Part shown: piece after piece, positions 1,824-46,200 of the stretch
How positions within the stretch are numbered: the first letter of the stretch is position 1
Layout of the letters: each line of letters starts with the position of its first letter
Notes under the pieces: model-generated
What the model was told of the DNA's origin: nothing
Database searches by the model: none
The model's input: only the letters and a program-made list of their open reading frames with translations
Assembly (NCBI GenBank): GCA_026874595.1
Contig: CM049316.1
Span: 57,359,676-57,423,675 of the forward strand
DNA: 64,000 nucleotides
Source of the DNA: Sipunculus nudus
Lineage: Eukaryota > Annelida > Sipuncula > Golfingiida > Sipunculidae
Reading direction: 5' to 3'
Made by a program: the position numbers and the translations under genes

Positions 1824-4800
1824 AACAAGGAAAAGTGAGTTACCGTTAAAATATGTGAACGTTTTTACTTGAATAATGAGAGATACTCCTTCGTGTGATT
1901 GGACTTTAGATCTAACAACAGATTTATTGTTAAATTTCCGCCCTGCAATACGTTTAACTCTTTTCATCATTTAATTCTTTCAGGAATGTTCACTCTAACT
2001 TATTTACTGATATACTCTATCCATTATGGAATGATGGATATATACTGGAAATAAACCAGCGTACCGAAATTCCTGTCCCACCAACACTGAAAATTCGTCT
2101 TCCCTGCTGTGTTCTCCACGAAGATAACATTCCAGTTCTGACTTTGCAAGGTATAATTCGGCGGATACTTCAACGATATCATTTCCAGTATCAGGCTTCC
2201 TTTTGTAGTGAAAGAAACTCTGCTGCCGTTCTCTCGTAAAACCAATTTGATATAATATTTCTTTTGTTCCCTAGAATGATAAAGAAATAAAGTGTTTCCT
2301 GGTTAATGTTTACCACACGTTACGTACATGTGTATCATAACTACATCCTCTACGTGAACAAAGTGCTACATGATCTAGCACCAGCTTACCTGTCTGTACT
2401 CCTCACACAATACAAACCTACCAGGACCCTCTGGTCTAGCAGTAGAAATCTTCTAGTAGTGCCTTCATTTAAGACCAACGGAGGGAGATCATTCTCCCAT
2501 GTGGCACCTGTGATCTGAAACAGCTTTCTAGATAATTTACGAGACGCTTTAAACAGTTAAAGAAAAGGCCTGAAGACATACATCTTTGAAAATGGTTATA
2601 AACTGTAAATGTTAAACATAAACAGTGTACAAAGATCAACATGGTGTCTATAAACTTATAATATACTTGTTCCTTAACTTACTGGTCTGCTATTTTATCA
2701 CAATTTCGTCATATTTAAATCGTTTTAATCTTGGACTTGCATTGACTAAAGTGGCCCAATAACAAATAAAGCATGCTGAATTAACACGAAAAATAGCTTC
2801 TTCCCTTTGAAATAAATTTGTATCTGCCAACATATTGCCCTGAAACCGCTTCTTACTCCTGTAAGCGAATGTTAAAAACATTGGACCGGGCTCGGTCACA
2901 GATGTCAACATAAACAGAGCGTGAATCGCCTAGGCCAAACACATGTGAATCAGATGTTCTGACTGACTTGGCCATAGAATGTAATAGATGTTCCAGCTGG
3001 CTGAAACATCGCGTGTTGCGGCTCACAATCGGACCTCCGGTCACACGGCCTTGTTATTGTGAACAGACACACGTGGACTGTGTTTACCAATACGCAGAGT
3101 CATAATAAGGTGTTTGACAGCCATATGCTAGATACTGAGAGTGAGTGCTGGGATGGTTTTGCTGGGAAACTATTGTATTTAATAGAACTGAACTGATAGT
3201 CTGAAAGAACAGACATTATATTGCCCCTGATTATGTCCTTTTAACTTTTACCGGTTTAATTTTTAAAATCACAAATTGCGCTTGTGAACAGTTGGGCGTT
3301 TTATAATTGTGTAATTATAACAAATAATAAAATAACTGACGTTGTCTTGACACACCCAAAAATTCCCGTTTAACCCTGAAGTTTCGGGAATGATGTCAAA
3401 TTTGCTCTATTTAAATAATATATATTCTCATAAATCCTGAAAACTTTTACAATATTTTGCGAAGGGGCTATGGAGGCGCTATCTATCAGGAATTAGGTGT
3501 ACTCAGACAAAACCTAAGAACTTATAATTAACTAGACAAGATAATAACGCAATCGTATATCAGGAAAAAGTAAAGCGACTTGAAAATATAATATCACATA
3601 AGCCATATGTCAAATGTGAACATAGTCGATATTAGATCAATTAATCAAACTAGCGACACCTACCGGTGATGACTGACACCCGTGTTCGAGTCAGGTACAT
3701 CGACACAGATCAGTTATATATTTCTAATTTTGACATTTTTTTACATTAACCTGTATTATGACATTTTCTATGAATGAACGTGGACTGTAGCTCCTGGCAA
3801 TTCAACTCTTTACATTTTACAATGCTGGCGTTGACCAAAATATAGCCTTAGACTAGTGAAGAGACCTGGAGCCGATATTTAATTATATTTTTTTTTCTTG
3901 TTTCAGAACAGTTTTATTCGTTATTAAGAGGGAATATGAGAACAAGAAGCAATCAAGTACATAAAAAGTTCAAAACGTTCATTCTCTGGTTCATTAACTG
4001 CATGCTATCATAATAAAGTCGTTAGGTTGACCAGGGAAAAAAGTTACAGAGCGCAAACCGTCAATATCAAAATGTGAAAGATTAAAAAGAAACTAGAATG
4101 GCTATGCTTTTTCAAGCGCCTTAACAAATATATGCACCCAACCCCCCTGATCGATTCTAAATTTAAGGGGTAGAAATATACATTATCTCAAAAATTATCG
4201 CGCATTTGAAAATATAAATTCGCAGATGTGACCTTGGATATCGCGGTAAAGGTCACAAGATCTCGAGCTCCTGAAGAGTAGATTACAGAAAGAACTGTTG
4301 TGCTAAATATAAGGGGGGAAATCAGTGCTTCTAAACTTAAGGGGGTCACAATAATTACAAGGACAACAGTACTTTCGAGACATCAGGGGAAACAGCTTGC
4401 GTGGCAAAATTGAGGTGAAAATATGCAGTATTCATGAATCATCGCGTTCACAGAAAATCCTGGAATCGATGAACTATAATTCGGCTTATTTGGCCTTGAA
4501 GATCATGGTCAAGGCCACCAGTTTTCAACTCTTCCAATATCTTGTATGAAACAAGTCGTTCGTTAAATCTGAGAACAAAATATGCAGTACTTCAAAAGTT
4601 ATGTAGTTCACAAAATGTCATTAAGACCACGACGGACGAAGACAAAATATGGCACTGAAAACAACAGTCTCCTCTAGTGTGTGTGGGGGGGTGGGGGTGG
4701 GGGATAAATAGCAAATCAACTCCAACAGTGGTGCTGCTGAGTACCATATTCTACAAGACAGCGGTAACAGTACAATCCTGACAGCTGGATGTAGGGCCTA

Positions 4801-7243
4801 CAAAGAAACATATTATAATCAGGATTTACATCTAGATCAGGTAAATTGTAAACCGATATTCCTAGTATAGGGCCACATCTCCACGAAAGTTCATTTATAC
4901 AATAATCATGCTCCCGAGGCAGCGGAAATCTTGCGCTTCTAAAGAAGCTACTGATTTAACCTCTGCCTGGTATGACCAATTATGATAGACTGAGACACCA
5001 GGTGGCGGGTCGGTGTCTACTGAAAACATCGTGCGTATGATGTGACTAGCAGCCAACCAAATGCCAGTTAACAAACACTCGACAGGCAACATGGCTCTGC
5101 CCATATAGCTGCGTTTCAAAAGCCGCTTGTTGACAGTTTTATGGTTACTCTTAGTGAATAATAGGTCGAATTTACTCCTGCGTTCTCGCATCATCGACCG
5201 ATTATGACATTAAGACTATGTGTGCGTGGCAAATGTATCCGTTGACATTAAAACGCATACCAGTCCAGCGAGGTGTGACGAAGCCAATGTTGTTACAATT
5301 CGTTTGAGTGACGGCTCATCGGTCCGGTATCCTGTGTGCACAATGACCTGTGCAAAGCACATGTCGGGCCGTCCTCTCTGAGCCTGTGGCTTATTCAAAC
5401 GGTTGCCGGGGCGATGAGCTGTCACTCAAAATAAAATACATGTAACAACATTGGCTCCGTGGATTCCTTGCTTAGCTGGTTGGTATCCGGTTTGCTTGCA
5501 ACACGTCCCGATAATAATGCATATGACCCCTAAAAAGGTTTTGGCAGCAGAATAAATATTTTATATAAATCATGTGACCATTTCAACCAATCATAGAGGA
5601 TGTTACTTCAAGCACTGGGTCATATCTAATTGGAACAACGTACAATGCTCCCCTCACGTGTAGGGACCCAGAAAACCAGACCAAAACAAGCAAGGCTCGA
5701 GATATAGGTAGTTGGTCTATAGTTAAAGCATTGTGTAAAGAGCGTTAACAATAATTTGCTGATATACATTTTGTTAACAGATTGACAAACAAACCGACGG
5801 TTAGATATCGACGAAAATGACCGAAAACTACTTGTGAGTAGTTTCATGTGGTAGGAATAGGCACAGCCTAATATATTCACTTAAAGGTATGGTGAAAAAA
5901 AATATATATTAAGAGAATCATACAGGCCTGTTTAATTGAATGTAAAATTTAGTACAGAAAAATACCCACTTTGAGGGTTCTTATGTCTGTGGTGTATTTC
6001 GGGTCCTCATACTCAAACATTCGCCATGTCGGAGGTCTTTCTTCTTTTGGCTTTAGCATATCAACACCACATTGGTAAATCCTGTCTAAGGCCCTCAACA
6101 GTCTCTGTCCCCAATCACGGCTCTGAATATTAAATTTAAATCAATGCAGGCAATGTTTTAAAGTTTATTCAAAGTCAAATACTTATCTTATTGTATCAAT
6201 GCATGGGGAAGCAAGCGGATAGAATCGGCCTTTTTTTCAAAGAAAACGCTTAGTTTTTTTGCTACCACTTTGACAGTTATTAAGAACAAACACACACAAT
6301 AACTGATTTGAATGTTCATTTTAAAAAATAAATATCTGGTAAATATCTAGAGAAATCCAATTATTAGAGTTATTGTCAATATGTTTTATTAATATTTTGT
6401 AACTTATTCTTAAACAATCTTCATAAACATACTTTTTCTTATTTACTCCTTTCAGTTTTTTTTTTTTTTGGCTATTTATTTTATGTTGATAACTAAAGTA
6501 AAGTAGTAGCTTTACATCACTTTCCATGGAGAAACTTCTCTTTAAATCTCCCATGTGCACGTTTAAACATGTAAACGCAATCACCGCCGTCAGCGGTACA
6601 TGATAAACAGAAGTACCAAAGTCATTTAGCACAGACTTACCTTAGCGTTCTCTTTAATCAAGCGTATGAAATCGATCTTTCTATATTTGTCTTTCAAACT
6701 TAATTGAAGTTGTATAAAGCTGTTTTTAGTGTCTGGTGGGACTCCAATCCACAGCTGGCCTGATGTTTCAGTTCTGATGTCTTCAAGTTCCTTATAAATA
6801 TACAAGAACAAAGTATTGCACATATCATGCATCAAGCTGCAAATGAAACATTTTGATTTTAGTGGAAATAAGAAATATATATTCTGATACTAAATGCAGA
6901 ATATACGCAAACATCTTCGAGAAATTTTCCACAGTTTCTTTCCCTGCCCAAAGTCGAGGTATATTGTTTGCACGAAATATGATTCCTCATTTGAGAATAA
7001 ATGCTGAATCCGCTGGTCACCGGCATACTTAACTATGAATGCTCTGAAATCTTGTACAAGACATTGTATTGGAAAAAAAACAATACCTGTTATTGCAGGG
7101 TTTATCTGTAAGTAAACTAATTATAACGTTGTATAGAAAAGTTATAACATTCAATGTCACCGGTTGACTATAAATTTAATAAATATACATTTCTAAATCT
7201 TCCCTTTTTTCAGATGTTTTGATATCACACACTGATAAATGCC

Positions 7244-10409: not shown

Positions 10410-12582
10410 AGCACTCTAGTAGTTGTTGCTTGCAGAAAACCTGCAGATCTATTCATATATGCTCCTTGAAAAATAAGTAGAGCACTCTCTGCATAAAACT
10501 ACCAACATGGAATCAATACGTCTCGAGTATTCTACGAAGAACATTCCATTACCATCGGAAACGGACTACAATAGAAAGCTTATTGAGAAGACAGAACACC
10601 TGTGCAGAAGAATGAGATGGAAAGCGTTCTTCTACCTCAACCCTGATATGAGGACACAAGACAAGGTAACTTTTGGATTTTGCTCTAAGAAAACACCACC
10701 ACAGATTCCTGAAATGATAAGTTTTGAAAACAAATTAGTTAAAATGATTGAGAACATCAAGTTTAGAGATACAAACTGCCACTTCCAGAAACAATTGTTC
10801 TCAGACATACGTAAAAAGATCAAGAGCTCCCAAAATCTGATTATTCCGGCGGACAAGACCACAAACTTCTATAAAATGGACCCAGTATAGCTTACAAAGA
10901 TCTCTTACACAAAAGCATTACAAAAGCATACAAAAAAGTGAGTTCAAAAGCTGTATCATCAAAAGAACGCGAGGCGAAACACATCACAAGAAAACTAGGC
11001 CTGGATGACAGGATAAATACGACAGCCCACAGAGAAGCGTTCATTACCTTGAAAGACCATAAACCAAACTTCAATAACAACCCTACCTGCCGACTCATCA
11101 ACCCAGCCAAATCCGAAATAGGAAAAATCTGGTTCAACAAAATTCCAAACAAAGAACAATATTCATTCATTTCCTTTGATGTAGTTGATTTTTATCCATC
11201 AATCAAATTACATCTCCTGAACAAAGCACTGGACTTCGCCTCCACCTACGATAGCATCACAACTGAGGAAAGAGAAATAATAACCCACTCTAAAAAGTCG
11301 TTCCTCTTTAACGCCGGAGAACCATGGAGTAAAAAAACGCCAGAATCTAACTTTGATGTCACCATGGGTAGCTACGATGGTGCCGAAACATGTGAACTTG
11401 TGGGCTCCTTCCTCCTCCATCTCATCACAAATAAACACGGAAACCTATTTGGATTGTACAGGGATGATTGGCTAGGAATCACAAAGGAAACCCCCAAAAA
11501 GGTAGAAGCCATAAAGAAAGACCTATGCAAAATATTCAAAACGCATGGCCTAAAAATTACAATAGAGGTTAACAAAAAGACCATTGACTTTCTAGATATA
11601 ACTTTGGACCTACAGCGTGGTAAACACAAACCGTTTACGAAACCAAACAATACACCATTATATGTCAACAGCAAATCCAACCACCCACCTGGAATAACCA
11701 AAAATATACCCGATTCGGTCAATAAACGTCTTTCCCAAATATCCTCAGACGCCGAATCATTCAACCAGGCAGCACCCATATACCAGGAAGCGCTTAAAAA
11801 AAGCGGATACAACTACCAATTAAAATATACCTCAACATCGGAACCCGTAGCTTGCAACCGAAAGAGAAAACGACGTCGAGATACCATATGGTACAACCCA
11901 CCGTACAGCAAAAACGTAAACACTAACATTGGTAAAACTTTCCTGAAAATTGTGAATACAGAATTCACCAAAGAACATAAATTACACAAAATATTCAACA
12001 GAAATACAATCAAATTGAGTTATAGTTGCATGCCTAATATGAAACAATATATTGATGGATTCAACAAGACAAAACTCTCAAGGAATGGAAATGCCTCAAA
12101 TCCTTCTAAATGCAACTGCAGAATACCAACGGAATGCCCCATGTCCGGCCACTGCTTGAAAGAATCAATTGTATACCAAGCGACCGTAACAGCCGAAAGT
12201 GAACCAAAGCAAAGCTACATAGGATTAACAGAAAATTCATTCAAGTCACGCTATGCAAATCACAAATCATCCTTCATGAACAAATCTAAGAAATTTAACA
12301 CAGAGCTTAGCAAATATATATGGCAGTTGAAAGACAAAGGTGTAGACTACAGTATCACATGGAAAATACTGAAACAGGCAAAGGCTTATAACAGCGCCAC
12401 CAACAGATGTAACCTATGCTTATGGGAAAAATACTATATCATTTGCAACCCCCATTTGGCCACCCTGAATAAACGGAACGAACTTGTCACCGCCTGTAGA
12501 CATGCGAACAAATTCCTCCTTAAGAATTTCATAACATAGATTTCAGTTTATAGGATACCCCCATTTCTTTCTCTCTCTCCTT

Positions 12583-14811: not shown

Positions 14812-16721
14812 TATAAGAAATGAATGGACATATGTATATGACAGTTCGACATCTCTCCTTTTAACAGGAAGCCAGGGTTATAAGGAATGCAGTGGCTGAC
14901 ACACTCTGTCAGGGCGTGATACAAGCAGCTCCGCTGAGGTACCTGGAGTTACCCTTAACCTTAAGGGAGAAGTATCCCAGACTAAACCTGGACAACCTGA
15001 TAAAGGAGAACATCCAGGTAACAAGTGTATATCATATTCATGACAAATGCAGGAAAAGCAAGCAGGCCAACGAGAGCGGTCGTCGCATGTGTAAAAAATG
15101 TTGAGCTGGATGCGCAATACGATACGACGCTCTCATTGGTCTGATTAAAATTCCTTGCTCTGTGCCCACCTTGGTGGTCGAACCCAGAGAACCATGCTAT
15201 ACAAAGCAGCGGTTACAAGAAAGGAGATCTGAGACGACTGCGGTGTATTACCGCTGTGTGCATGACGTGCGTACATTTTCCATGCGATAAAGCATATTAA
15301 GAATAATTCAAAGATATGTGATTTGCTGTTCTGCCTCAAAACGCACATTTAATTTTCCTTTTCAATCTTCAAATCTTCAACCATTGGTTTTGACCAATGA
15401 AAGTTGGGCATTCCATATAGTTTTTTTTTAAGTTTGGCGAGGCGTCATAAGATCTAAAACAATGGTAGCAGTCTACAGCAAATAGCCCCAATGAAAGCTG
15501 CGTATTGAATGAAATGGATAAGTAGCAGAAATGGAATGAGGCCATTGCATAATGAATGTTGATTATATTATGAGACGCTGGCTGACCTACGAACCTTTTA
15601 CTGTATTTTGTAGTAAATCTTTTAGCACTAAAAGGACTAGGCAATAGGGCTACTGTAACATTAAAAAAAATCTACAAATTTTAGCATGCATAATGGCATT
15701 ACAACATCGGTTGTGATAATAACATCAATTTACATCTTATTTCTAGATAATGTTGAACATAGCCACGCAACCATCTTTTATTGTGATCGGAATTAAGATT
15801 TTTTATTCGTATATACAATATCTAAATATTAGCAATAAGGAGCTTTTTAATTTCTTGTATGGAAACATAGGATGAATATTGGGCCACCCGTCTAGTTCAT
15901 GGCCTGGATACTCTGATAAATTTTGGGCTACATCTTCTAAAGAAACCTAAAGATCGACCAGAAGACTGGAATGTCGTCAGATTCAACAGTAAAGAATATA
16001 CAGACACCTTGAGGTATTTGGAGGCAAGTTTTATAAAAAACATGTCAACAACGTCTAACCTTTACCTGTTCCAATTCCTTATGTCCATTCAAGTGTCAAG
16101 CTTTTTACGTTCGTCCTGTCTTTCTCTCTAAAGTTCACTAAAGCTCTCTCTCTTTCTTTCTTTCTCTCTTTCAACTGAAACAGTGGAAATGTAAACAGGT
16201 TCACAGCTGTACATTGACGTTTATACGTAAATAATTACAAGAATGAAAAAGATATTATAAAAAAAAGGTTTTCACATAGAGGTATAATGGAACCTTCATC
16301 GTATACACATCAAATTTAATACTTAGATTTAATATTTAGAACACTAAATGGCTCTAGTGAAGAATTGTCGAATGATATAACCTTCACCCTGTATAGTACA
16401 GGCAAGAGAATCACGAACAATTGCATGCCCTCAATATTTTAAAAACACGAATAAAAGAAGTTATATTTGACATTCACATATATGTTTCAAATCTTTTAAT
16501 GTGGATATTCATCACACACAGGGACATTACGACATCTTATGGTCACTGGGGTACACGAATCACAGAGAAGATGGGCTGTACTTTGGTGAATTCGTGGATC
16601 CCGACCCCCGTGATGTGGTCCTGACCCTATCAGAAGTAGTCCTGGCCAGAAGTGAAATATACGCTTACATACAAGGCACCCATCCACGACCCAACGTCAT
16701 CTCAGAGGTGTCCATGGACAA
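14351..16721 (+). CDS. RNF31-like: Gene B PUB-domain exons (four exons)
   Basis: 14351-14374 gives the start MDVLQIKN, in an exon opening at acceptor 14320/14321 with a short in-exon leader. 14868-15017 encodes LELPLTLREKYPRLNLDNLI and neighbours. 15871-16023 encodes LVHGLDTLINFGLHLLKKP through DTLRYLE, resembling HOIP NTLSTALNILEKYGRNLL. 16522-16721 encodes LWSLGYTNHREDGLYF through THPRPNV, matching HOIP LRLYGYTEEQPDGLSF and NTHPRQQ. PUB domains bind PIM motifs of p97/VCP and OTULIN. The intron after 16023 has a GC donor, AG|GCAAGT, the accepted minor class. Confidence 0.85.
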
Positions 16722-19700
16722 GTAAACATAATTTATAAAAACCAAATGAATTGTTTTCCGTTCAACTTGTTTAGAAACATGCCAAGTTTATCATTTTATT
16801 TGAATAAATTATTTTTCTAAAGTGTAATATTCAACAAAATTCAATGTGATTTAAAACTCATTACTATGAACCAAAGTTATCTACCTGGCTGAAGTTTAAT
16901 TTTCAGTAAAATAAGACCTGGACTTCTGTACTATTTTCTTTGTTTGAAGAATAGGTTCATGGTTAGCTGCCGACGCAACATTATTTTTCATATTAAGTCT
17001 GTCTACCACATTGCGCCATTCACTAAAAAGCCATTTGAGTCCATTCATTTTGGCTAGTTCATGGCCTGCTGGTGACATTGTTTGTTGAATGAGGATGAAG
17101 CTATCTATGCATACGACAAGGATAATATGTTATTGTTAATCCTTCTGGATTTCGATTTTTTAAATGCACTGGGCTAGGAAGATTACAGAAGTTATAACTT
17201 GTCATTAAATCATCACAGCGAATATCTGACGTTCTATCGATGTTTCACCATTTTACTGTTGAAGCAGGAATTGGGGTTCGAAATAGCAACCATCCTATTA
17301 TAATGCCGGAAGCACTAGGCTAATTTCTACCTCTAATATCCTGTGCTTATAGCTAACAATACGTGTCAGGAACGTTCATCCATGGCTAAAATACAAAATT
17401 AATATATTTACCCTCATGATAACCTGGCGATTTAAACGGGCTCTCAGGCAACAGTATATTCAATGCCAATATTCTCAAATGCCAACGAGACGCTTTAAAC
17501 GACTTACTGACTGACTGACTGAAAGTGAAGTCGGTGCTCGAGCCAGTCACAGGCCTGCGGATCGAAAATCCGGCCCGCACTGGCTGCCTCAGCAACCACA
17601 AAGTTTGACAGATTGAGTCGGTTTACATTTCAGTATTTAAGGGGAAAATAGTAGATAGTGATAGAGTTGGAGATCGTAGTGAGGGAGGTTGAGGGAGCCG
17701 GAAAACCCAGAGAGAACCACCGACCTTGGACGGGCCAGTACAACCTAATCTCATGGCAGCACCTGGAATTGAACCTGGGTCGCCAGCGGAGAAGGTCGAG
17801 CGTTTTTCCGCTCAGCTGTCCAGGCCCCAATCTTTAAACGAAATGGTTATAAAATATCAAATTTGTTAATCCTTTCTTTCAATTTTTTCCTCCACCTTAT
17901 TAGCAACATTCAGTTCAACTTAGCTCGGCCAGCCAACACTCTTTTCTGGAGCGCTTTCGTTTTTCTTTTCTAGAGCGATTTTTTTTCAAATGACCGTCAA
18001 AATTGAGAAATACTCTCGTTCATTTTAGCATTATTTTAAATATATAATATTCAGCAGTTGTTCTTCTAAGTGCTACCATTGTTTTTGCCTAAATCTATAA
18101 TGATACGGTAATACTCCACGGGTCTTTGTTGCAGGTCGGTCAGTCCTAACCTGTCCCAGCCAGCACCTCCTGAGTTAAATATGTATGAGAACATTAAGGT
18201 ATATACATACGGTGCTTTTTTATACTCCGAGCATCTTTATATCTATATCTTATTCTATTTAACTCCGTAGGCCCACGTGTGCGTGTGCAAGTTATCATTA
18301 TCCGTATCATAATTTTTTTAATATAAGTCCACTAAAAAGTGGTTTACTGTTACTAGGTGCTTACAACAGCGTACCTTTTTAAAACTTAAATTTGTTTAAA
18401 ATTATACAAAATCATGGGAAAATGAAGAAAAGTTCAAGAATATGTATACCATCAGAAAGATCACTTTACCAGGTTTAATATAATGTATGCGTTATGAGGT
18501 CTAATATGAATTAAAAACAACTTTTTGATGATTCAATAGTAGTAGGGTTTTTTACAATAATGATATTCTAAGGAATTTTTCGTGAATATTCAATATGCTG
18601 GATTCCTTAAGACAATGCTTAAGCATGACGTGACCTATTAACTGTGTAATCTGTAATATGGCTCCACCAGGGTCTTTCCGGGTTAGACGTGCAAACCCCG
18701 ATTCAAGAACGACCAACGTCTTCTGATGCGAAATTGGCGACTATCGGGAAAGGTCCTGCAGGCATGTATGGTAACACTGGTATCAGAGAAGATTATTTGG
18801 CCCCTGTGGATAACGGCATGCCCCACCACGGAAGGTTCATAGTCCATGACTACGAAAGTATAGACCACCCAATAATCGGAATCCCGGTGAGCATTTGGTA
18901 TCAACAGTCAACGTCCCCCAAGGCCCAAAACTTTACACAAATCATTATTTAAGCTGAACTTAAGGGGAAGATAATGTATTCTGCTGTGTCCGTTTACTGG
19001 TCTGTTTTTCTGTTTGTTTGCTGAACTATGCACAGGTTATCTGAAGAATGTTTCACAGGATTAGCGTATTAAGGCATGGTAGTACTAACCAAGATTAAAA
19101 TACAGATACTGAATAGTTTATTAACCCTGAATATGACTCTTTCGTATTGTCATATCTTGTGTAAGTTGGATGAAAATCTATTTGCATGAGACCGGCTAAA
19201 GGGACAGTGAGGATAACCGTTTGTGCTCAACATATCAGCGGTTAAGGTTCAAATTCCCAGTGAAGACATACATACCATTTATAAGATTGTTTCTCTTCCT
19301 TAACATGGGTGTGAATGTCTGGCTTTGCAAATTTAGTAGCTTAATATTCTACATACAAACTGCTTCAATTATTTTGGTTGTGCCTTCAAGACAATGAGGT
19401 CACGAAATTGTTAGTCTCACCAAAATAGAATCGTTTAGACTTTGCTCACTTAATCAATGCATTTGCACAAAATATGTGCAACCTGTTTGGCGTAGATACA
19501 CGTAATACAGAGCAGATAGCACTGGACAGTACTTAAATTTTTTTAATCTCGTCGCTCTAATTTCAATACATCTTTCTACACGTGCTTGCCTAAAGACTGC
19601 TGTGTACAAGTCCTTTGCACGAAAAGTAAAATATAAACAGGTAATATATAAAAACAGAGACTACTACATGCTGCAGGGACCTCGTCAATGCAAAGCTCTT

Positions 19701-20182
19701 AATAAAAGCTGTGACAGATTATTACTGTTTCAAGACGGAAGTATGCCTACTCTGATCTTTCTTTGTCATGTACCTTACCATTACACTCCGTGTTGGTTGT
19801 GGCCCATAGATGTTTGATGGGACAGGTCTGCCACTGTGCTTGGATTCCCACTCTTCCCTCTCCCAAAATATGAATCTTGAACCTTATATGTATTAATGAT
19901 CAGTTTGTTAATGATCAGTGTTTTTCCATACCTAATCTTTTTTTAAATTAGTAAAAAAAAATTTAATTCGGTATTTTAAAGAATATCTATGTTATATAAT
20001 TCCAGTGTCCAATGTGTTCTCATAAGAATGCGCCTGGTGTGCTCAGGTGCTTCAACTGTGACAGGCAAATCAACAGACGAGCAACGGTTGCCATAGATAC
20101 TACAGACATGGCAGCGGCTGCAGTACTGAGGAACTTGCCCACGACAGTATGTTTTTAAATCAACTTTTGTATCCCGAAGTTC

Positions 20183-20221
<39 letters not shown>

Positions 20222-22435
20222 TCAGAGAAAGAGGATATTTTGTGATAAATAGGATTGCTAACAAGCTGGTTTTCCGTTAGAGTGATGGGTGTACTTTTAA
20301 GAAAACCTTGATGTACCTCAAGTTTCAGAGTGAAACAAATATTATCTTGTTATAATATTGATGTTTATGTTTATATAAAAAATTTATCCAATCATGGTGT
20401 TATAAACAGAAATATTGTAAAAGGTGATAGATTTATCCTGACGTTTGACCACTCGGCCATGACTAAATTAGGGACCAACAATGCAAAATGAATGACAAAT
20501 AGTGTTAATTGTACCAGGGTGCTGAGATGACAGGAAAACAAGAAGGACAAACAAATTTGTCGAGAAGACCGAGATCTGTCTGGGAACCGGGCACGGGTAC
20601 TAGGCAAGCGGTAATGTAAACTTTAGATCGCATAATCTTTTTTGTTACACAGAACAGATCGTCAAGAAATAGGGAAAAGCTGAAATATGCAGCATAACTC
20701 TTTGAAATTCTTATCACTCATGTACGCAATAAACAATAATAATTGACCACATGTGATGTATTCCGACAAAACAGATGGTAAAAAACGTACAGGGAAAATT
20801 AAGTTTTCTAGAAACATCTAGATATTTGATGGCATTGGATGAAGGGATTTTGAAGGACAGATAGAGTCATTGTATTGGCCTACATCAAAACCGGTGACCA
20901 GAAACGGTGAAAGCACATTTATTACTCTTTTAAGTAATCATTTAGATAAGCATTTAGTTGTAAACATATCAGTTTATAACCATAATCAGGAAAAATTATT
21001 TTGGGATAATCTATGTTCAGTTTTACGTTGAATCATACGTATTTATTATCCTGGTTGATATTTTGAACACCATTTTGCCCTCATCATTACATTTTACAGG
21101 GACTGCATTCAGATAAACTTGCGGGGTCCTTTGCTGGTTCAGGCACGTGCCGCCATGGAAAACCGTCAAATGTACGAGGAGGACAAATCCATTGTTTTGC
21201 ATGTTTAAAAATAAAGGAACAAGAGGAGTTGTTTGGCGACGGAAGATCCAAAGCTCCAAAAGAAATGATTGACGAAACAGTGCGTTGTTTTACTATTTCA
21301 AAGACATTTTTATGTAAAGGAATCTGCTTAAAAGATGATCTATTAGTTTTTTTTAGTTAACATCACCTGAATAGAATGATCATGCATTCATCTACACAAA
21401 ACACTCTAATACATATTCTGATAGAAATAATATCCTATTTTCACTAAAGCAGTAATTGTCTCTCAAGATGATGTCATACACTCATGCAAAGTATATCATA
21501 TACATCAAAGTCCATGATTTATAATTATAACACACTGCTGTCTATGTAATAGAACTATAGTTCATTTCCTAAACGAAAGTGAAAAGAATGAAGCATAATA
21601 ATTCAATTTAAATTTATATTGTTTAATATGGAAGGAGGAAGCGGATGAAGTTGAACAGTGGTCTTGTCGGTACTGTACATTGTTAAACCCAGTGGGTAAA
21701 ACCATCTGTGAAGCATGCGCGAAAACCAATGACGCTCCTCAAGTAGTGAGACCGGAAGTAGCCAAAACGGAAGTACGTCCAATAACTTGTTTTTTTCCTG
21801 TACTCAGAAACTTCAGTTTTTAGAACAAATCCGTTTTAATATCTAAGAAATATCAGCAAATAATTGAAGGACATAGTACAGATATAATAAAAGTATCTTT
21901 TGTCTCGGGCGATATTTTCAAGTATTGGAAAACGGCCGGTAGAGGGCTCATCTAAACCAAATGAACAAAAATTCTAATTAATGGAACATTTCAGAAGAAA
22001 CAAAGTATTGAGATGGAATTGGACAAACACGATTGGATATGTCCAGTGTGTCGTGCGCAGATTCCCTCTGTCTTGGATTCCTGTCCGCACTGTACTGCTG
22101 ACGTCATAGAAGAAACGTCAGATGAAGATAAGGTGTGTACAGCGGTCTAGATATGAAATAAGTTGAATTTTAATACAACACTAACACTGTCTTATTACAA
22201 ACCCCTCCTAACCATTGACTCTACCTTAACCCGACAAGATAACATGTGCATCTGTCAGGGGTCTATTGCTACAAAGTGACTTGAGTCATATTTTGGACAA
22301 AAATACAGAGACTGAAGCGAGTAACAGTATGTGGTAACCACTACCACGATACAGTTGTAGCAATGGTATTTAAAACTGCCCCAAGACTTAAATCTAAAAG
22401 AATGTTATTTCAACAGACCCCTTCATGCTATATTA

Positions 22436-22502
<67 letters not shown>

Positions 22503-25500
22503 CCTAGTTGAGCTCGCTTAAATCGAATAAACCACTTTTGTCGGAGCTTCATTTTCGAAGTCGGTTGTTAAAATATTATTTATTATTATCTACCAAATCA
22601 TACTTTATTTATATAGCACCTTATCCAAAGAAATGCTTTAAGGTGCTTTACACTAAGACAGTAGCATATTAAAAATGATTAAAAATGAAACATTAAAGCC
22701 CTTCCCATGCATTCTTAAAACCATCACATTATTAAAATATACAATATTAAAAAATGTAACATATAATGAAAAAGTCATATCACAAGTTATGTGCCAATTT
22801 AAAAAAATGTGATTTCACTATATTTTTTTTTAAATATTAATAGTTTCAGCACATTTAATATCTGTTGGTAAATTTTGAACAGAAGTGCTGCAGATATACT
22901 GAAACGCTTATCCCCGTATGTGACAGTTCTTGCTGATAGCACCGTCAGCAGGCGATGCTGTTGTGAACGGAGCGTTCTAAATGGCTGATACCTCTAACGT
23001 TTATCGCTAAGATACACTGGCATTAAACCATGTAGTGCTTTATATGTATACATTAAGATCTTATAACTTGATCTGTGCTGCTCTGGAAGCCAGTGTAGTT
23101 CATATAATACTGGAGCAATGTGCTCGCGCACACGTGTACGGGATATCAGGCGGGCTGCACAGTTTTGTACTCGTTGGAGACGACCAATGGGTATTTGTGG
23201 CAGACCATGTAGTAACCCAATCGTGAAGTAAAAAGCGCTTGTACCAAGGTCCTACAAGTATCATCAGTAATATATTTTCGAATTTTGCCAATGCCTCGGA
23301 TCCGAAAGTAGCATGACTTCACTATAGCATGTATCTGCTTCTCCATTGTCAAATGATTATAAAAAAACGACACCTAGATACTTCACCTGAGATACTGCAT
23401 GTATTGTATTAGACCCTACATTTACAGAAATATCAGAAAAAAATCCTGGATTGACATTAAGGTACAAAAACAATCAATTCTTGTCCTGATTTAGCCTCAG
23501 TTCATCACTACTCATGCACTTATTGATGTCAATATTACTTTATAAAACCCGCTTGTGTCGAACCGCTGAAACGTCGATGCTCAATATTATGAGTCCCTCC
23601 GACTCGACACAAAAGGTTTTACTGTATGCAAATTAGATATTGGAATTGTTTCTTTTTTTCGTTAATGTAATACAAAATACACTGGCTACTTTAGATAATA
23701 TAAGTTTAAACTGATACCCCCCCCCCCCCCCCAACCACACACAAATTTGTTTACATTTTATGCTATACATAATGTTCATCTTGCAGAATGTTAAACAAAC
23801 GGAACAAATGGTTGAAAACACACCGCAGGTTAAGGTTAAAGAAACTGAGCCGAAGACAGAAGTGTGTCGGGAATGCAATGAACCGGTAAAATAAATGACG
23901 CAGACTTATTGGACAAACACATTCTGTAGATTCTAAGGAAATACACGATATATAACAATTGAAAATGTATTCATATACTGGACGACATTATAACATTAAA
24001 CAGAATATGATTATTAACAAATGGATCTAAAATGTGTATATAATTATCATTATTCATCCGATCCTGAAGCGAATATGACAACTAATCGGAATGTATAAAA
24101 ACATTTACATGACTTTAAACATGACCAGACCCTAATGCATGTAGGCCTACATACATGCAGTACTTTTTATTATTCGAACAAGATTTATGATATATGATAT
24201 GTTTAATATTGTAATAAGGCCCTAAAACAGGATATTTCTGCAGCAATCCAGTTTAAAGTTTCAGGGATCTCCCCGCCCGCACATGGGAATTCTCTGAATT
24301 ACTGCATGATGTCAGGTCATAATAGAAGCGGATCCGGGGGGGGGGGGGGTCAAGGGGGTCCGGACCCCCCCCCCCCCCTATTCAGCAGCCACAAGCTTTT
24401 TTGGAGTGTTTCAGACAATTTTTTTTCGGCCTGGACCCCCCCCCCCCCCCTTTCTGGACCTGGTGACTATTTTAAGGCTTTGTCATTGAACCTCCTGGGT
24501 TGGACCCCTCCTTTTCCTAAATATTGGATCCGCCCCTGCATGAGCATGGTATTAATGTCACATGAACTTGATGATATTTTTTTCTGTTCAAAATGTGACT
24601 TTTGCTTTCAAATAAGTAAAGATAGCTCTTCTTTTTCAGTTTGAGAAGTTTTCATAATATACGAAAGATTAAACTGTAATAAAAAGAAAATGACGTTATT
24701 ATCGACTAAACATGTACACTATATGCATGTTTTATTTTCAGGTGCATCAAAAAGTTCTCTTTCAGATGGGATGAGCATGTGAAATTAACAAATATTTATG
24801 ATTTACCCGTTTTATTGCAGCTGCATGCCGACAGAACGTGTTCACAATATTTCACCTATAAAACGCTCAGTGCTACTAAAACGGCAGTTGAGGCCATGGG
24901 TATGAACAAGATAGGTAAGAGATACGGCATATACCTGTATAACGATTTGATAGAATTATCTTTAAGCATGAAGAATGGTTGTCTTTTATCACAAGTTACA
25001 AACCATACGACAAGTTGAAAAAAAATCATTAATTTCCTTTGTATAACATTATTAAACCATGCACAGTCTATTCTAAGCAATGCAAGCCTCGGCCATGTGG
25101 GATGTTCCAAAAACCGTGTTTCCATTCACCTATTCGGCTCATATTCCCAGGTTCATCCGTGCATAAGTGACGGTTCATTTGTGAATATTCCTTGATAAAA
25201 TTCCTGAATCCGGATCATGTGTCGGGATCCTGGCCAAAATCTTATCGATTCTTCATTCGTCCATTCCCGAAATGTCCCAAAATTTCCACGAGATTCCGTT
25301 CAAGGTTGCGTGAGTTATGTAATGAACAAACACACGCACGGGGAAGAAAGCATACCCTCCCGGCGGAGGCAACAACACTGTGACTGGGCATGTATAGGAT
25401 ATTATATAATTACGCATTATATACGTACTTTAGGATTTAATGATATCATAATTCATTATTTTTTTTTCAATTTATTTGATCAAGTTTGTCCCCGTTGCAA

Positions 25501-26569
25501 CAAGATGTGCACATTTAGCAGAGGGATCAAAAGACATGCGACGTGTCAAGACTGTAAAATGACTTTCTGCCAAGGCTGCTCAGCTGCTTACGTACTGAAC
25601 ACGGTGAGTACCAGCAATCGTTTGGTGCTGCTCAGTGACGTAAATATTAAGTCTTCACAGAAAAGAAATATGTACTTTCATAAAGAAAAAAATCAACGAT
25701 TTATGTTAATTTAGCATGGGATATGAGAAAGTGTTATTACATCAAGCATTTACTGCATTTACGGTGTCGTTTTAAAGAGGGGTTCAAAGATTTATACCCT
25801 AGGCCTATTAACTTAATTGTGTCTTAGTTAGCGTAATTATATAAGCAAGTAAATGACCAAATTAAATAGTCTCAACACAATTCATTTAATGTTCAAGTTA
25901 GTTTGATAAAAAGAATATGTACAAAAGACATTAAAATATTACGCGAACGCACAATGTACAGACAATTATTCTTTCTAGGACTGTACGATATTTCCTGGTT
26001 GTGTTGAAGAGGGGTCACACGCACATCATCCGAGAAACTGTATTATACATTTAAGTAGCATGGAGGAGGAAAAATTAAAACGGTTACTAAACGTAAGGAT
26101 AATGGCTGCTAAACGTAAGGCTAACGTCAACTATACGTAAGGCTTACCTCCGCAGCTGTATTGATTGATATGTCTCTTTTTTTCTTTTTCATTCATCTTG
26201 AAAATGTGTAAAATATGACTGGAGTATTACCGATAAATTCATTATTTAATAAACTTGCTCTTGTATAATTGTACAAAGAATTCCGTACATTAAAATTCAT
26301 CCATAGTTGCCATTTATTAATCACGTTAAAGAAAACGAATCAACTAACACAACAATTTTATCATAACCATAAAATATTGATAATCTTGAATCGGCATGAC
26401 CTATGATTAATTAATTTTCTTGCAGAATCACAAAATACCCTTTCAAACAACTACCACAGGAAAGTGTAAAAAATGTCCGATCGAAATACTAGTCGAAGCA
26501 AACGGAAAGTTGAAAGTCTGTGGAGGAAGTGCAAAAAAGAAAAGAGCCAGCCTCTGCAAGTAAGGATCG

Positions 26570-29600: not shown

Positions 29601-30658
29601 GGATTCCTAGGTCTTACGGTTTCAAAACGTGCCACATCTACGGACAGACGGACGGACGACAGACAATGGACCACGACTATAGCTCAGATGACTTATAGTC
29701 AGCTGAGCTAAAAATACACACACACTCAAACGGGAATGAACCCATACCCTCCTGAGTGAGGCAATATTTAAAGTGCTTTCTGCCTTTAGGTTGTTTGTTC
29801 GTTGAGTAATGACAGTCGACGCTTTATGTGAAGAGAAAACATATCGTTTATTAGAGTTAATGGTGAAACTAACGACAAATTGGTGAAATTTAGTTTCTCA
29901 GACACTTCTATATTAGAAGGAACATACTAAAACTTTCTGTCAATCTTTCTATATATCTGCGTTCCAGAGATCACTATAAAGAATACCTGGTTATGAAGAT
30001 AAACGCAGAGCGCCTAGATCCCGTAGAGGTCATGGACATCACGGAGATAAAACAAACCATCGCCAGAGCCGGGATGGGCTTCCCAACTCATACAGACATA
30101 CAGACCTTAATGAAGGTCAGAGTACATTAAAAACGATCGAAAGTGATTCATATGAATAATTTGGTCTCTCTTTTTTGTATAAGCTGTTTAGGTGGTAAGT
30201 CGGTTTCTGGATCAGTGCTTACAATTGATTAAATTTACAATTAAGTTAGCTTACAATTTTATTTTGGTTTATTCTATAAAAAAAATAAATAGGGTTTGAA
30301 CAGTCGTAACAAAATTACTTCCAGTTGGAAATAGTCATAAATCAATAAAAAAAGGTAATAATTAAAAATTACAGGTGATGTACATGCAATGAAGAAACTT
30401 GTGAATCTTAAATAAATCATTCAGATCAGTTTGCATTGATTTTTGTATAATTTTGACCAAAATATCGGCTTTACGTTTAATCGTTTCATGGATGGGTTAT
30501 GAAAATAAGCTATGATCTGTTAAACATTTTATGGGATGACTCTTTACATTAATTAAATATATTTTGTTAACCCCTGTTCCTTAATGTGAGTTTTTTTAAG
30601 GATACTTTTCTGTTTACTATAGGTCGTTAGAGAGAGGATACCGATCTACAAACAGTAG
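14351..30658 (+). CDS. RNF31-like: RNF31/HOIP-like gene B with eroded RBR core and non-catalytic RING2
   Basis: Seventeen exons join in one frame of 715 codons plus stop: 14351-14374, 14868-15017, 15871-16023, 16522-16721, 18135-18198, 18671-18886, 20006-20146, 21100-21279, 21635-21772, 21995-22132, 23787-23885, 24821-24914, 25485-25603, 25979-26092, 26426-26559, 29968-30115, 30623-30658. Order: PUB (about residues 1-175), linker, zinc ribbon, Cys/His-rich segment, NZF, second zinc ribbon, half RING-like CxxC, RING2, LDD. The C-terminal text (HYKEYLV-x-x-INA-x-x-LDP) is unmistakably HOIP, which builds Met1-linked ubiquitin chains in the LUBAC complex. Human HOIP has 1072 residues; here UBA, RING1 and most of IBR are not found, and the catalytic Cys of RING2 is replaced by Lys. 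It could be a pseudo-ligase, a decaying duplicate of gene A, or an incomplete reading if exons near 23.9-24.8 kb were missed. Confidence 0.85.
15105..15256 (+). repeat. Dispersed repeat R1, copy in gene B intron
   Basis: About 150 bp (GCTGGATGCGCAATACGATA ... CTCTCATTGGT ... CTGCGGTGTATTACCGC) similar throughout to 46947-47104, including a short hairpin at the same end. Confidence 0.7.
17502..17830 (-). mobile_element. tRNA-derived SINE in gene B intron
   Basis: On the minus strand it begins GGGGCCTGGACAGCTGAGCG (A-box-like) and has B-box GGTTCAATTCC about 50 bp on, then a Pro/Ser-codon-like body with TCTCTCTGGGTTTTCCGG and a tail reaching a (TGAC)n stretch at 17502-17521. It supports an RNA polymerase III-derived SINE. 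Confidence 0.75.
18135..21279 (+). CDS. RNF31-like: Gene B linker, zinc ribbon and Cys/His-rich exons
   Basis: 18135-18198 and 18671-18886 encode a Pro/Gly-rich linker (PAPPELNMYENIK; ending PIIGIP). 20006-20146 encodes CPMCSHKNAPGVLRCFNCD, a CxxC-x10-CxxC zinc ribbon in the place where HOIP has its own zinc-finger segment (CFLCGSAPGTLHCPSC). 21100-21279 encodes CRHGKPSNVRGGQIHCFAC with an acidic/basic tail; its cysteines may bind a further zinc but no named domain is recognised. All junctions are GT-AG and the frame stays open throughout. Confidence 0.75.
19196..19262 (+). mobile_element. tRNA-like SINE head fragment
   Basis: GGGACAGTGAGGATAAC (A-box-like) is followed about 45 bp later by GGTTCAAATTCC (B-box). 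No cloverleaf with paired ends is evident, so it is a SINE remnant rather than a tRNA gene. Confidence 0.45.
20184..20219. repeat. (GA)n microsatellite
   Basis: About 36 bp GA repeat just after exon 20006-20146. Confidence 0.96.
21635..22132 (+). CDS. RNF31-like: Gene B NZF finger and second zinc ribbon exons
   Basis: 21635-21772 encodes WSCRYCTLLNPVGKTICEAC, a full NZF with Trp two residues before the first Cys and Asn at the conserved place. 21995-22132 encodes WICPVCRAQIPSVLDSCPHC, a CxxC-x10-CxxC ribbon followed by an acidic tail. Both exons are 138 bp and phase 0, a modular pattern that favours gain and loss of fingers. Confidence 0.8.
22438..22501. repeat. (AT)n microsatellite
   Basis: About 64 bp TA repeat in gene B intron. 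Confidence 0.97.
22570..23520 (-). mobile_element. LINE 3' fragment (CR1/L2/Jockey type)
   Basis: The minus strand encodes, across decayed frames, NHLTMEKQIHAIVKSCYFRI, TLVQALFTSRL, then GRLQRVQNCAARL and LHWLP: the C-terminal end of a LINE reverse transcriptase. It ends near 22570 with GGTGCTATATAAATAAA and an ATA-rich tail, a typical LINE 3' end. 5'-truncated, several stops. It lies between short flanks (22502-22569 and about 23537-23625) that look like halves of one older inverted-repeat element. Confidence 0.8.
23787..24914 (+). CDS. RNF31-like: Gene B junction where RING1-IBR should be
   Basis: 23787-23885 encodes a charged stretch ending EVCRECNEP, which could be the first CxxC of a RING1. 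24821-24914 encodes LHADRTCSQYFTYK to AVEAMGMNKI, matching the HOIP end of IBR and the helix to RING2 (RGRSCEDFQNWKR to LQENGIDCPKC). Both meet in phase 0, so they can splice directly, leaving out RING1 and IBR. An exon at 24742 would, in this phase, read VHQKVLFQMG then stop, so it is not included here. Confidence 0.65.
24310..24543. mobile_element. GC-rich inserted element with GGATCC inverted ends and 8-bp duplication
   Basis: GCGGATCC near 24329 faces GGATCCGC at 24526-24533. Inside are long G and C runs (24337-24375, 24437-24450). CTGCATGA occurs at 24302-24309 and again at 24536-24543, consistent with an 8-bp target-site duplication as made by hAT-type transposases. The distance between copies is 234 bp (78 codons), and the frame through it carries no stop. 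Probably a non-autonomous DNA transposon. Confidence 0.65.
24544..24613 (+). pseudogene. Possible IBR-domain remnant (first half)
   Basis: Directly right of the inserted element the plus strand reads MVLMSHELDDIFFCSKCDFC then FQI and a donor-like AA|GTAAAG. Human HOIP has GVLMRDPKFLWCAQCSFGFI at the start of its IBR. The match is short but in the expected position between the E11 and RING2 exons. The exit phase does not fit the neighbouring exons. Confidence 0.45.
24742..24778 (+). pseudogene. Possible IBR-domain remnant (second half)
   Basis: After acceptor ATTTTCAG, one frame reads CIKKFSFRWDEH, resembling HOIP CVRCKRQWEEQH just before the RGRSC segment. That frame needs two bases carried from the previous exon, while the previous exon (23787-23885) ends in phase 0. 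So either an intermediate exon is missing or this is a decayed exon. The frame does run on openly into 24821. Confidence 0.4.
25075..25383 (+). repeat. Dispersed repeat R2 with GGCGGAGG tail, copy 1
   Basis: GATCATGTGTCGGGATCCTG ... TCGATTCTTCATT ... TTCCGTTCAAGG ... CCTCCCGGCGGAGGCAA. This is a widespread invertebrate SINE/RTE-tail-like sequence. Similar text recurs at 26745-27110. It lies just upstream of the RING2 exon. Confidence 0.65.
25485..25603 (+). CDS. RNF31-like: Gene B RING2 domain without the catalytic cysteine
   Basis: Acceptor GATCAAG, donor ACG|GTGAGT. It encodes CPRCNKMCTFSRGIKRHATC, then QDCKMTFCQGC. Human HOIP reads [20 protein letters not shown], then TQCRHQFCSGC. The zinc-ligand cysteines align without gaps and Arg-Gly is shared. 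The catalytic Cys885 position is Lys here, while the neighbouring His887 position is still His. An extra Cys (in KMC) lies seven residues upstream of the catalytic position. A RING2 lacking this Cys cannot form the ubiquitin thioester known for RBR ligases. Confidence 0.88.
25979..30658 (+). CDS. RNF31-like: Gene B C-terminal LDD exons (HOIP linear-chain determining domain)
   Basis: Four exons. 25979-26092: SHAHHPRNCIIHLSS (HOIP LHGHHPRDCLFYLRD). 26426-26559: IPFQTTTTGKCKKC to RASLC. 29968-30115: DHYKEYLVMKINAERLDP, nearly the HOIP AHYKEYLVSLINAHSLDP. 30623-30658: VVRERIPIYKQ, stop TAG. In HOIP this domain positions the acceptor ubiquitin. The Asp of HHPRDC is Asn here. The 3.4-kb intron before 29968 is swollen by repeats. 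Confidence 0.88.
26573..26616. repeat. (CT)n microsatellite
   Basis: About 44 bp CT repeat starting 14 bp after the exon 26426-26559. Confidence 0.96.
26745..27110 (+). repeat. Dispersed repeat R2, copy 2
   Basis: Shares with copy 1 the blocks CCACCATGTGGG, TGCATAAGT, GATCCGGATCAT, TCGATTCTTCATT and the final AACACACAxACAC stretch, in the same order. A short tail fragment also occurs at about 29718-29770. Confidence 0.65.
28415..28925 (+). repeat. Dispersed repeat R3, copy 1
   Basis: Contains GTGCCATGGTCAAAGTTGGG, AAATTTAAGGTA, and later CTTGAAGTGTAACAATGGGTT; the same blocks recur in order at 29085-29712 and 59095-59710. Confidence 0.7.
29085..29712 (+). repeat. Dispersed repeat R3, copy 2
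   Basis: Adjacent to copy 1 in the same orientation. Ends CGGACAGACGGACGGACGAC then AGCTCAGATGACTTATAGTC. Very close to the copy at 59095-59710 over its last 300 bp. Confidence 0.8.
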
Positions 30659-43201: not shown

Positions 43202-46200
43202 CTGAAAGAAAGTAACAAAAATATTTATAACGGCAATTAGTAATGAAGCATACATGAGTTGACTTTTTTTAAACATTTAACTTAATATGCTCTATTCAAG
43301 ATGTAAGATATATGTTTATGAGTTTTCATGTAAGAACAAAAGAATATAGCCCTATCTTATCCATGGTTCCTAAAGAAAACTTGGATATATCCAAGGTTTA
43401 TTACAAGCAAGTTTTAGTTTGTAATAATCTTCAATCAGTTTACCAAAATTTAGATATTAAAACTTTTACACAAACCGGGTACTTGACTTCAAAGATTTTG
43501 ACACATTGACAGCAAGGTTTCAGTTGTTTATACCCCCCAATATATACTTAAAATTACTTCAAGAGCAAGTCATTTTACAAGATCTCACTTTTTATATATA
43601 TAAAATTATATCCTGCTACTTAAAAAGCCATTCATTTAATTTAAATAACCCCTGGCCAAGGTTTTTTCCCATACATCTACATTTTCTAATTCAAACACAT
43701 GCTAAATCCAAAACTTCTACCATCTCTGAATCAAGCTTGAACGTATCTACAAGAGGTATCTCAAAAACACAGCCATTCAGCCAAATTAATTTATTCAACC
43801 AGGATGACAAAAAATGGCTTCAAAGCAATTCTTTGTCATGAGCTGATGGTATACATGTGATGCATCTACTTGATGCAATCTTATCCCTGCAAACCAATGT
43901 TACCTATGATCATAATACCGTAAGAATTTATTTTGAACATAAATTGTTTGTATGTAAAACCTTCTTTTCGGCTATGATAATAGTGCAGGCTAGTGACTAC
44001 AATTTGGTAATATGCCAAGACCTCATCATGTGAGGTTATTTAACAAACCTTTATGGCTACCAATTGGCAACATGCCAGTTTTCTCCCAAAAAATGAAAAA
44101 CAAAACTTGGTTATATCATGCAACATCAAACTTTGGCTAATTCTTCTATTAAATGACAGTATTTTAGTATTAATATTTTAATTTGATAAGTATTATTCCA
44201 CAATCAGATATCAAATCAATTAAAGAACAGTATTGTCACAATTTTAAAAGCTTGTCACAAACAAGTAATAATATGTGATGATATTAAGATCATAGGTAAA
44301 TACGAACATTAAAACACTGAAACATTGCTAGTATGTCAACTAATAGATTACAACTCAGTCACACTGCCAGTTTTACTTTTAAATTCAGAATGTGAGTATC
44401 AATCCATTACAGAAATCTGAAGCCACTATTTTATTTAAATATCCATCCCCATTTTCCAATAGAACCCATATATTTGCTGTAAAATAATAACTGAAAAACC
44501 ATATAACATTTAAAAAAACACCTAATAGAAACGTTTTATAGCTTCAACAAAAGATTAAATAGACAAAGACCAGTCCTTTGATTCAAAAATTTGTTTGTAA
44601 ACATGTAGCATAATTAATAAATCAGCCCAAATAAGAAGCAAGGAAGTATGAATATAATGTTCTAAGCAATTTGTTGGTTATCTGTAAGGATGATGATGTA
44701 TACAGTAGTAGATCAATTCCCATTGCTTGACAGGGTAGTCCTGGTGGAACCATTTAACTTAACTTGTTGTTGGTGCTGACAACCAGTTTTATTTGACATC
44801 ACTGAAAATCCCCATCTGTGCAGCTCAGCAAAATTGTAATTACTATACAAGGAAAAAGAGGATCATTGGTGGAATTCATGTAACTCACCTATTTTGTGCA
44901 TCATTTTTTTCTCTCAAATCATTGTAAATAAATAATGATTTAATTATTGCGGTAATTGTTCTTTGCAATATTTATTTGGTAACTTTCTTTGTTTCAGTGC
45001 TGTCTTTTCTCCATTTTTTTTCTTTTCTGCTATATTTCATGATGTAACTATTTCAATATCAAATTCTTTAATATGGTCTTTTTTTTCAAGGCATATCACA
45101 ACATGGTCACTATTACAAAAAAAGTATAACAAAGTAACATTTTAATTTCTATCTTTAAACTTTAATGATAAAAACGTTTATAAGAGTCTGAGATATTAAT
45201 AGAAAAAAAATTTAAAAAATTTTTTATTAATTTATTATCAAGAAACAAATCACCAAAATCTTGATTAAGGGTTGATTGGTTATTAATTACAGATAAGTGG
45301 AAGTACTGCAGTTTCGTCATGTATTCTGAATCTTACAACTGTAATTTAATTTGAAATATTTCATAAACGATAGTCACTTCAAATTTTTGTCTGATCAATT
45401 ATTCTTTTTATTCATATTCCATGCAGTAAAACAGCTGAAGCTGATTTTAAAGATGATATAGATATTGTGAAATGTGCATTAATTTTTTTCTGATCAACTA
45501 AAATATAAAGTTCATTATATTAAAAGAAAAAAAAAACAGAATGTAAACCAAAACAGCTTTCATGAAGGCAGTAAAAGAGACAAACATAATGCAAGCATGC
45601 TAAAAACTTAAGAAACATTACAACGTGGCCCGGCTTGGGCCTTTGTCTCCTCCAGTCCTGAAAAGTAATCTCTCATACTTAGCTTTTTTCCACCTTCTCC
45701 TGGGACAAGGTGTGAGGTTATAAAAGACCCTTAATAGCACATTTTGTGGTTTAAATATAAACCTGTGATGGCTCTGTACTTGTTCATATTAATATCACTA
45801 CCAGTGTATTTCCTGAGGAAAGCCATATCAACACAACCTTGCCCTTTATAACATAAAAAAAACAATTTGGCATTCTCCTATAAGAAGGAGATCTTCAGTT
45901 TATATGATTACTTTGTGACCATTGTGGAATTAAGGAGTTAAAAATATGGCTTTATAAGGAGCTGCCATATACCACTAAGAGGGAAATTGTTAAACTAAGG
46001 ATATAAACCTAGAACCATCACCGCTTGCTAATATTGCCATAGTAAAATCTATGAATTACTTGGATGTGAATTCTTGTTACATTTACTTGTGTTATTTTTG
46101 TCAATATACTTTCTTTTCTACAAGTCATAATGTGGTGAGCCATGACAGTGCACAATGGTATCATAGCACAGGTACAAGAAGTTTGGAAGCTCAATCTATT

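Follow-up and report, generated by a model that had tools for sequence, protein, structure and literature searches.

A HOIP-like gene of Sipunculus nudus with lysine at the catalytic RING2 position: a candidate pseudo-ligase

A stretch of 64,000 nucleotides from Sipunculus nudus (assembly GCA_026874595.1, contig CM049316.1, positions 57,359,676 to 57,423,675 of the forward strand; hereafter, the window) contains two adjoining, divergently oriented HOIP-like genes. One of them, gene B, carries lysine where human HOIP (RNF31) has its active-site cysteine. This raises the question of whether gene B is still a protein-coding gene and, if so, what its product could do. The reading that we prefer, to which we give a probability of about 0.6 on the evidence of the sequence, is that gene B is a protein-coding HOIP paralogue that has turned into a non-catalytic pseudo-ligase.

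Gene model and RING2 of gene B

Gene B was modelled as 15 coding exons between positions 14868 and 30658 of the plus strand, which together span 2046 nt with the stop codon and encode 681 residues without an internal stop. The model starts without a start-codon exon, and exons 4 and 6 were placed by splice sites and phase. Thirteen of the 14 introns have GT-AG boundaries and one has GC-AG, the phases are consistent throughout, and the GC content is 0.46 in exons and 0.34 in introns. The GC-AG boundary, with a GCAAGT donor, belongs to intron 2 (16024-16521, plus strand).

All exons of gene B lie on the plus strand. The N-terminal part consists of a PUB extension in exon 1 (14868-15017) and the PUB itself in exons 2 (15871-16023, followed by the GC-AG intron) and 3 (16522-16707). 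A linker placed by splice sites and phase only (exon 4, 18671-18886) leads to an NZF-like C4 zinc finger pattern in exon 5 (20006-20146), a weak, possible zinc-binding segment in exon 6 (21100-21279), an NZF-like (RanBP-type) finger in exon 7 (21635-21772), which has weak PDB matches to the TAB2 and NPL4 fingers, and a C4 zinc ribbon in exon 8 (21995-22132), which scores slightly under the Pfam double-zinc-ribbon cut-off. Exon 9 (23787-23885) encodes a linker with a terminal CxxC near the position of HOIP IBR Cys828, and exon 10 (24821-24914) encodes the end of the IBR, with the His836 and Cys841 positions, and the linker to RING2, which occupies exon 11 (25485-25603). An acceptor of exon 10 before 24743 was rejected for wrong phase or a stop, and the one before 24821 fits. 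The LDD follows in exons 12 (25979-26092, with an HHPR-x-C segment), 13 (26426-26559, middle segment), and 14 (29968-30115, with the HYKEYLV/INA/LDP segment), and exon 15 (30623-30658), supported by splice sites, phase, and weak similarity, adds the C terminus and a TAG stop. Exon 14 was located by searches with the HOIP sequence; it joins exon 13 in phase, the two sharing a split codon.

The PUB of gene B matched the HOIP PUB with an E value of 8.6e-15 (query residues 19-163 of a 620-residue version in which the last two exons were left out). The Pfam PUB model was weak on it (13.3 bits versus a cut-off of 34.3), and the RanBP/NZF and zinc-ribbon matches were also below their Pfam cut-offs, with CxxC...CxxC patterns present. 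No UBA was matched in the 620-residue model or in the scanned pieces, a weak test that used Pfam only. Together, the alignments indicate that gene B is homologous to HOIP from the PUB to the C-terminal LDD.

The 39 whole codons of the RING2 exon translate to CPRCNKMCTFSRGIKRHATCQDCKMTFCQGCSAAYVLNT. The exon has AG upstream and GT downstream, and its phases (1 and 0) agree with those of the neighboring exons. Taken alone, it matched human HOIP/RNF31 RING2 over 35 residues without gaps in a phmmer search of the PDB; this match was weak (E of 0.038 for the sequence and 0.13 for the stretch), and the Pfam IBR_1 model reached 27.6 bits on the exon, with a cut-off of 27. When the flanking exons were added, the HOIP alignment, which runs from the IBR end through RING2 into the first part of the LDD, reached an E value of 9.6e-14. 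With residues numbered on the human HOIP RBR-LDD and verified against PDB 5edv, the lysine of gene B aligns to Cys885 and its histidine to His887, the active-site stretch being SRGIKRHAT in gene B versus ARGGCMHFA in human HOIP (4ljp; ARGGCMHFH in 9iic). These alignments bear out both the gap-free correspondence and the replacement of Cys885 by lysine with His887 kept, as proposed in an earlier note on this DNA. The lysine codon is AAA (25529-25531), which matches neither TGT nor TGC at any of its three positions and thus rules out a single sequencing error. According to a description of HOIP, His887 probably acts as a general base and is dispensable for transthiolation (PMC5135002, excerpt).

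The remaining cysteines of RING2 (C871, C874, C890, C893, C898, and C901) are retained with the exact spacing of HOIP. Across all six frames, the window contains the corresponding pattern, C-x2-C-x15-C-x2-C-x4-C-x2-C, a single time, and none of 100 dinucleotide shuffles contains it; a looser version of the spacing also occurs once in the window, with one occurrence over all 100 shuffles together. We take these six non-catalytic cysteines to be zinc ligands. An additional cysteine (25508-25510, plus strand) is found at the position of HOIP Tyr878, seven residues N-terminal of the lysine. An alternative, cysteine-bearing RING2 exon, the possibility that the earlier note had set against its own claim, appeared neither in the spacing scan nor in a phmmer scan of the window: No other six-frame fragment has the RING2 cysteine spacing, and the phmmer runner-up to the RING2 exon (45523-45672, minus strand; E of 0.064) is without it.

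RING1 and the first half of the IBR

In the frame of gene B, a short linker connects the NZF-like fingers with the end of the IBR. RING1 and the first half of the IBR would be expected between 22133 and 24820 on the plus strand, an interval made up of intron 8, exon 9, and intron 9, and neither was detected there. A Pfam scan of 22148-24822 in six frames found no RING or IBR. Among the best 40 pieces of a tblastn comparison of HOIP with the window, we found RING2, two LDD exons, and a remainder taken as chance, the best match with RING1 having an E value of 1.0 on the minus strand.

In the phmmer scan, eight HOIP pieces were compared with 3981 six-frame fragments, and the best four matches per piece were considered. 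The results were convincing for three pieces, namely, RING2 (E of 0.0017), the first LDD piece (4.4e-5), and the last LDD piece (2.9e-5); sensitivity was limited, as of the five HOIP pieces with a counterpart in gene B, two, the linker between IBR and RING2 and the middle LDD, went undetected. Among these best four matches, window-wide, the RING1 piece reached a top E value of 0.03 at 46021-46209 (minus strand) and the IBR piece 0.049 at 52803-52907, both read as chance, and the RING1-IBR spacer reached 17. The RING2 exon itself was the third match of the IBR piece (E of 0.86).

Furthermore, HOIP 696-845 was aligned locally to the forward frames. The resulting score was reached in 49 of 200 shuffles of intron 9, in 148 of 200 of intron 8, and in 110 of 200 of the whole interval including exon 9, a test that failed to detect exon 9; for the RING2-LDD positive control, no shuffle out of 200 reached the score. 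A possible IBR remnant in intron 9 (24541-24630, VLMSHELDDIFFCSKCDFCF), which resembles HOIP VLMRDPKFLWCAQCSFGF, was rejected because its score of 30 lies below the best score of the intron (32), itself the one reached by 49 of 200 shuffles.

What is left of the IBR is its end. Three alignments agree on H836, C841, and C828, and one also supports C825. Two alignments put the first cysteine of the exon 9 CxxC on C828, and one sets the pair on C825 and C828 with a three-residue gap. The same CxxC was considered as a RING1 start and ruled out, as the HOIP alignments continue from it into the IBR end via His836 and Cys841. The absence of RING1 and of the first IBR half from gene B appears, on these searches, well supported, short of proof.

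A fault of the assembly or of the gene model, by which the RING1-IBR exons would exist and be missing or misplaced so that the cysteine-to-lysine change alone was real, is an unlikely account of this result. Two features of the interval are hard to assemble, namely, poly-G/poly-C tracts in intron 9 (~24335-24450) and a TA microsatellite in intron 8, and the piecewise search missed pieces that are present. However, the window contains no N, the junctions of exons 8, 9, and 10 preserve the reading frame and have AG and GT sites, and the forward frames of the interval offer only ten CxxC/CxC motifs, that of exon 9 included, none of which was judged compatible with RING1. Under the pseudo-ligase reading, the change to lysine is one of three predicted lesions in a truncated RBR and not a lone swap in a complete ligase; the third concerns the LDD.

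LDD, PUB pocket, and the neighboring gene

The RBR C-terminal domain model PF18091, which we take to be the HOIP LDD, matched gene B with 65.7 bits (cut-off of 23) over positions 1-92 of 92. Between gene B and HOIP 821-1072, 70 of 221 aligned positions are identical. Cysteines are retained at 14 of 16 positions in the global alignment (C825, C828, C841, C871, C874, C890, C893, C898, C901, C911, C916, C930, C986, and C998) and at 13 of 16 in a MAFFT alignment, which leaves C825 unmatched; the two lost in the global alignment are C885, which is the lysine, and C969, which falls into a gap with gene B cysteines close by. Six of the 11 histidines are retained (H836, H887, H923, H925, H926, and H1001), and H821, H889, H895, H1013, and H1035 are lost. 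The LDD is described as unique to HOIP, and R935 and D936 of HOIP are reported to contact acceptor ubiquitin, their alanine mutants abrogating linear ubiquitination (PMC7125101, excerpt). Gene B has serine at both of these positions, in exon 12, within a stretch that is gap-free in two alignments. The alignment at HOIP Q974, E976, and D983 varies with gap placement.

Gene A is represented by five exons on the minus strand. The first three, at 6641-6790 (counterpart of gene B exon 1), 5970-6122 (PUB, counterpart of exon 2), and 2088-2270 (PUB, counterpart of exon 3), measure 150, 153, and 183 nt versus 150, 153, and 186 nt in gene B; the third is one codon shorter, its end having been placed manually at a GT. 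They are followed by a C4 zinc-finger exon (1084-1252) and an NZF-like exon (543-692), the last one before the window edge. No gene A exon was found past 543-692 within the window, and an RBR of gene A would lie outside it. The two proteins share 49 of 162 aligned residues; over the 162 aligned codons, dN is 0.82, and dS is beyond the NG86 method and was read as saturated. Between the two divergent genes, a 554-codon open frame (10875-12539, plus strand) had no Pfam match above cut-off; judging by eye, we take it to be a Penelope-type reverse transcriptase/endonuclease. Elsewhere in the window, an exon of an anoctamin-type gene is found at 53178-53864 on the minus strand (Pfam, 193.4 bits).

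The peptide pocket of the PUB is altered in both paralogues (15871-16707, plus strand, and 2088-6122, minus strand). In HOIP, binding of OTULIN to the PUB is reported to be abolished by N102D or N102Q and lowered 10- to 50-fold by Y82F, N85A, and V104A (PMC4017264, excerpt). When the pocket residues were numbered by hand on the alignment of the gene B and HOIP PUBs, gene B was found to carry S102, F82, H85, and E104 (N102S, Y82F, N85H, and V104E), and gene A D102, C82, D85, and K104. Pro92 is common to both, and Asn101 and Tyr124 are kept in gene B. These residues suggest that canonical OTULIN-type peptide docking has been lost or changed in this lineage. Because the pocket is changed in both, the PUB is uncertain as a docking site for either product, and its erosion makes one obvious entry to a LUBAC-like complex doubtful. 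The earlier note had proposed that gene B may still bind ubiquitin or partners through its PUB, NZF, and LDD parts; the LDD is indeed present, as are putative NZF-like fingers, while the part of the proposal that concerns the PUB is less supported, given the change in its OTULIN pocket.

Predicted role of gene B and comparison with known systems

Recent disablement is about as improbable as a fault of the assembly. According to this explanation, gene B would be on its way to a pseudogene, and the RING1-IBR loss and the lysine would be signs of early decay, as the three separate catalytic lesions and the altered PUB pocket might indicate. In a simulation of neutral decay (n = 400), the frame was still open in 45.5% of runs at 0.01 changes per site and in 23.5% at 0.02, as compared to 1.25% at 0.05; at 0.1 and at 0.2, no run kept it open. 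This argues against a long decay of gene B and is compatible with a recent loss. Against the latter stand a model of 681 codons without stops or broken splice sites, the 13 or 14 of 16 cysteines retained across HOIP 821-1072, the three base changes needed to turn a cysteine codon into AAA, and the rarity of open frames in the simulation from 0.05 changes per site upward. The argument from missing stops is weakened because the exons were chosen partly for being open.

It is less probable still that the lysine is itself functional and takes ubiquitin from another ligase, for example, the product of gene A, as a stable amide, leaving RING2 loaded with ubiquitin. Active sites of E2 enzymes in which cysteine is changed to lysine can carry amide-linked ubiquitin of this stable kind, and the lysine of gene B coincides with the position that forms the thioester, His887 being retained; however, no RING1 for delivery in cis was detected, and serine stands at both the R935 and the D936 position. 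Reuse of RING2 as a generic zinc finger in an unrelated binding role is equally remote: The exon alone matches a ZBTB10 C2H2 finger, its second match in the PDB, nearly as well as HOIP (E of 0.042 versus 0.038), but with the flanking exons HOIP leads by 9.6e-14 to 0.013, and the six-cysteine RING2 spacing and the full-length LDD model match persist.

The pseudo-ligase reading, which the earlier note had based on the lysine, has gained support beyond it: The searches turned up neither RING1 nor the first IBR half, and serine replaces both R935 and D936. In a census of human E3s, the RING1-IBR-RING2 triad is described as invariably linked and required by the RBR mechanism, and pseudo-E3s are recognized as a class that is inactive as ligases and has structural or regulatory roles (PMC13061254, excerpt). 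Since RING1, a complete IBR, and the catalytic cysteine were each not found in gene B, we assign it to the HOIP homologues but not to the RBR ligases. Without RING1, its product would be unable to dock E2~ubiquitin; without Cys885, it would be unable to form a ubiquitin thioester; and without R935 and D936, it would not be expected to hold acceptor ubiquitin as HOIP does. The NZF-like fingers and the RING2-LDD fold could serve as a binding module, likeliest for ubiquitin chains or for partners in a HOIP-type complex, and gene B may tune active HOIP as a scaffold or a competitor. That it regulates the product of gene A, as the earlier note suggested, is a guess.

More tentatively, and with odds that we put below even, gene B may have become after duplication a dedicated, conserved pseudo-HOIP subunit that controls a linear-ubiquitin ligase. 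Such a subunit would no longer dock E2, form the thioester, or position the acceptor and would have kept the RING2-LDD scaffold for binding of ubiquitin or partners. If this holds, gene B, with RING2 and LDD and without RING1 or the catalytic cysteine, would amount to a naturally occurring separation of functions. The contribution of RING2-LDD apart from catalysis could then be tested directly, as could the tuning of linear-ubiquitin signaling by a catalytically dead HOIP copy. Among the matches listed for the openly licensed literature, we found neither a HOIP paralogue whose catalytic cysteine is missing nor a HOIP copy with RING2-LDD and without RING1. No relatives were confirmed among the pattern matches in viral_contigs (3 and 54) or genome_contigs (45 and 138), sets that consist of viruses and prokaryotes and so do not bear on animal orthologues.

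The closest known system is HOIP/RNF31 itself, the catalytic subunit of LUBAC. Gene B shares with it the order of PUB, putative NZF-like fingers, IBR end, RING2, and LDD, as well as His887 and the six RING2 cysteines outside catalysis. It differs in that RING1, the first IBR half, and the UBA (for which the test is weak) were not detected, Cys885 is lysine, Arg935 and Asp936 are serine, and the PUB pocket is changed. The predicted role of gene B relative to HOIP can be likened to that of SHARPIN relative to HOIL-1: SHARPIN, a subunit of LUBAC that has no ligase module, is a non-catalytic relative of one of the LUBAC ligases and a presumed scaffold. In contrast to gene B, it is a relative of HOIL-1 and not of HOIP, and it retains no RING2 or LDD. 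In Aplysia, a TRIAD-less HOIL1 isoform has been put forward as a possible SHARPIN analogue (PMC9334734, excerpt). Similar to gene B as predicted here, the TRIM RING pseudoligases resemble E3s and carry a RING domain, with no detectable activity in isolation (PMC11992055, excerpt); unlike gene B, they belong to the RING family and have no catalytic cysteine to lose. Last, Drosophila LUBEL is, like gene B, an invertebrate HOIP-type protein, described as a HOIP orthologue; unlike the predicted product of gene B, it is an active ligase for which M1-linked ubiquitination has been reported (PMC6462001, excerpt).
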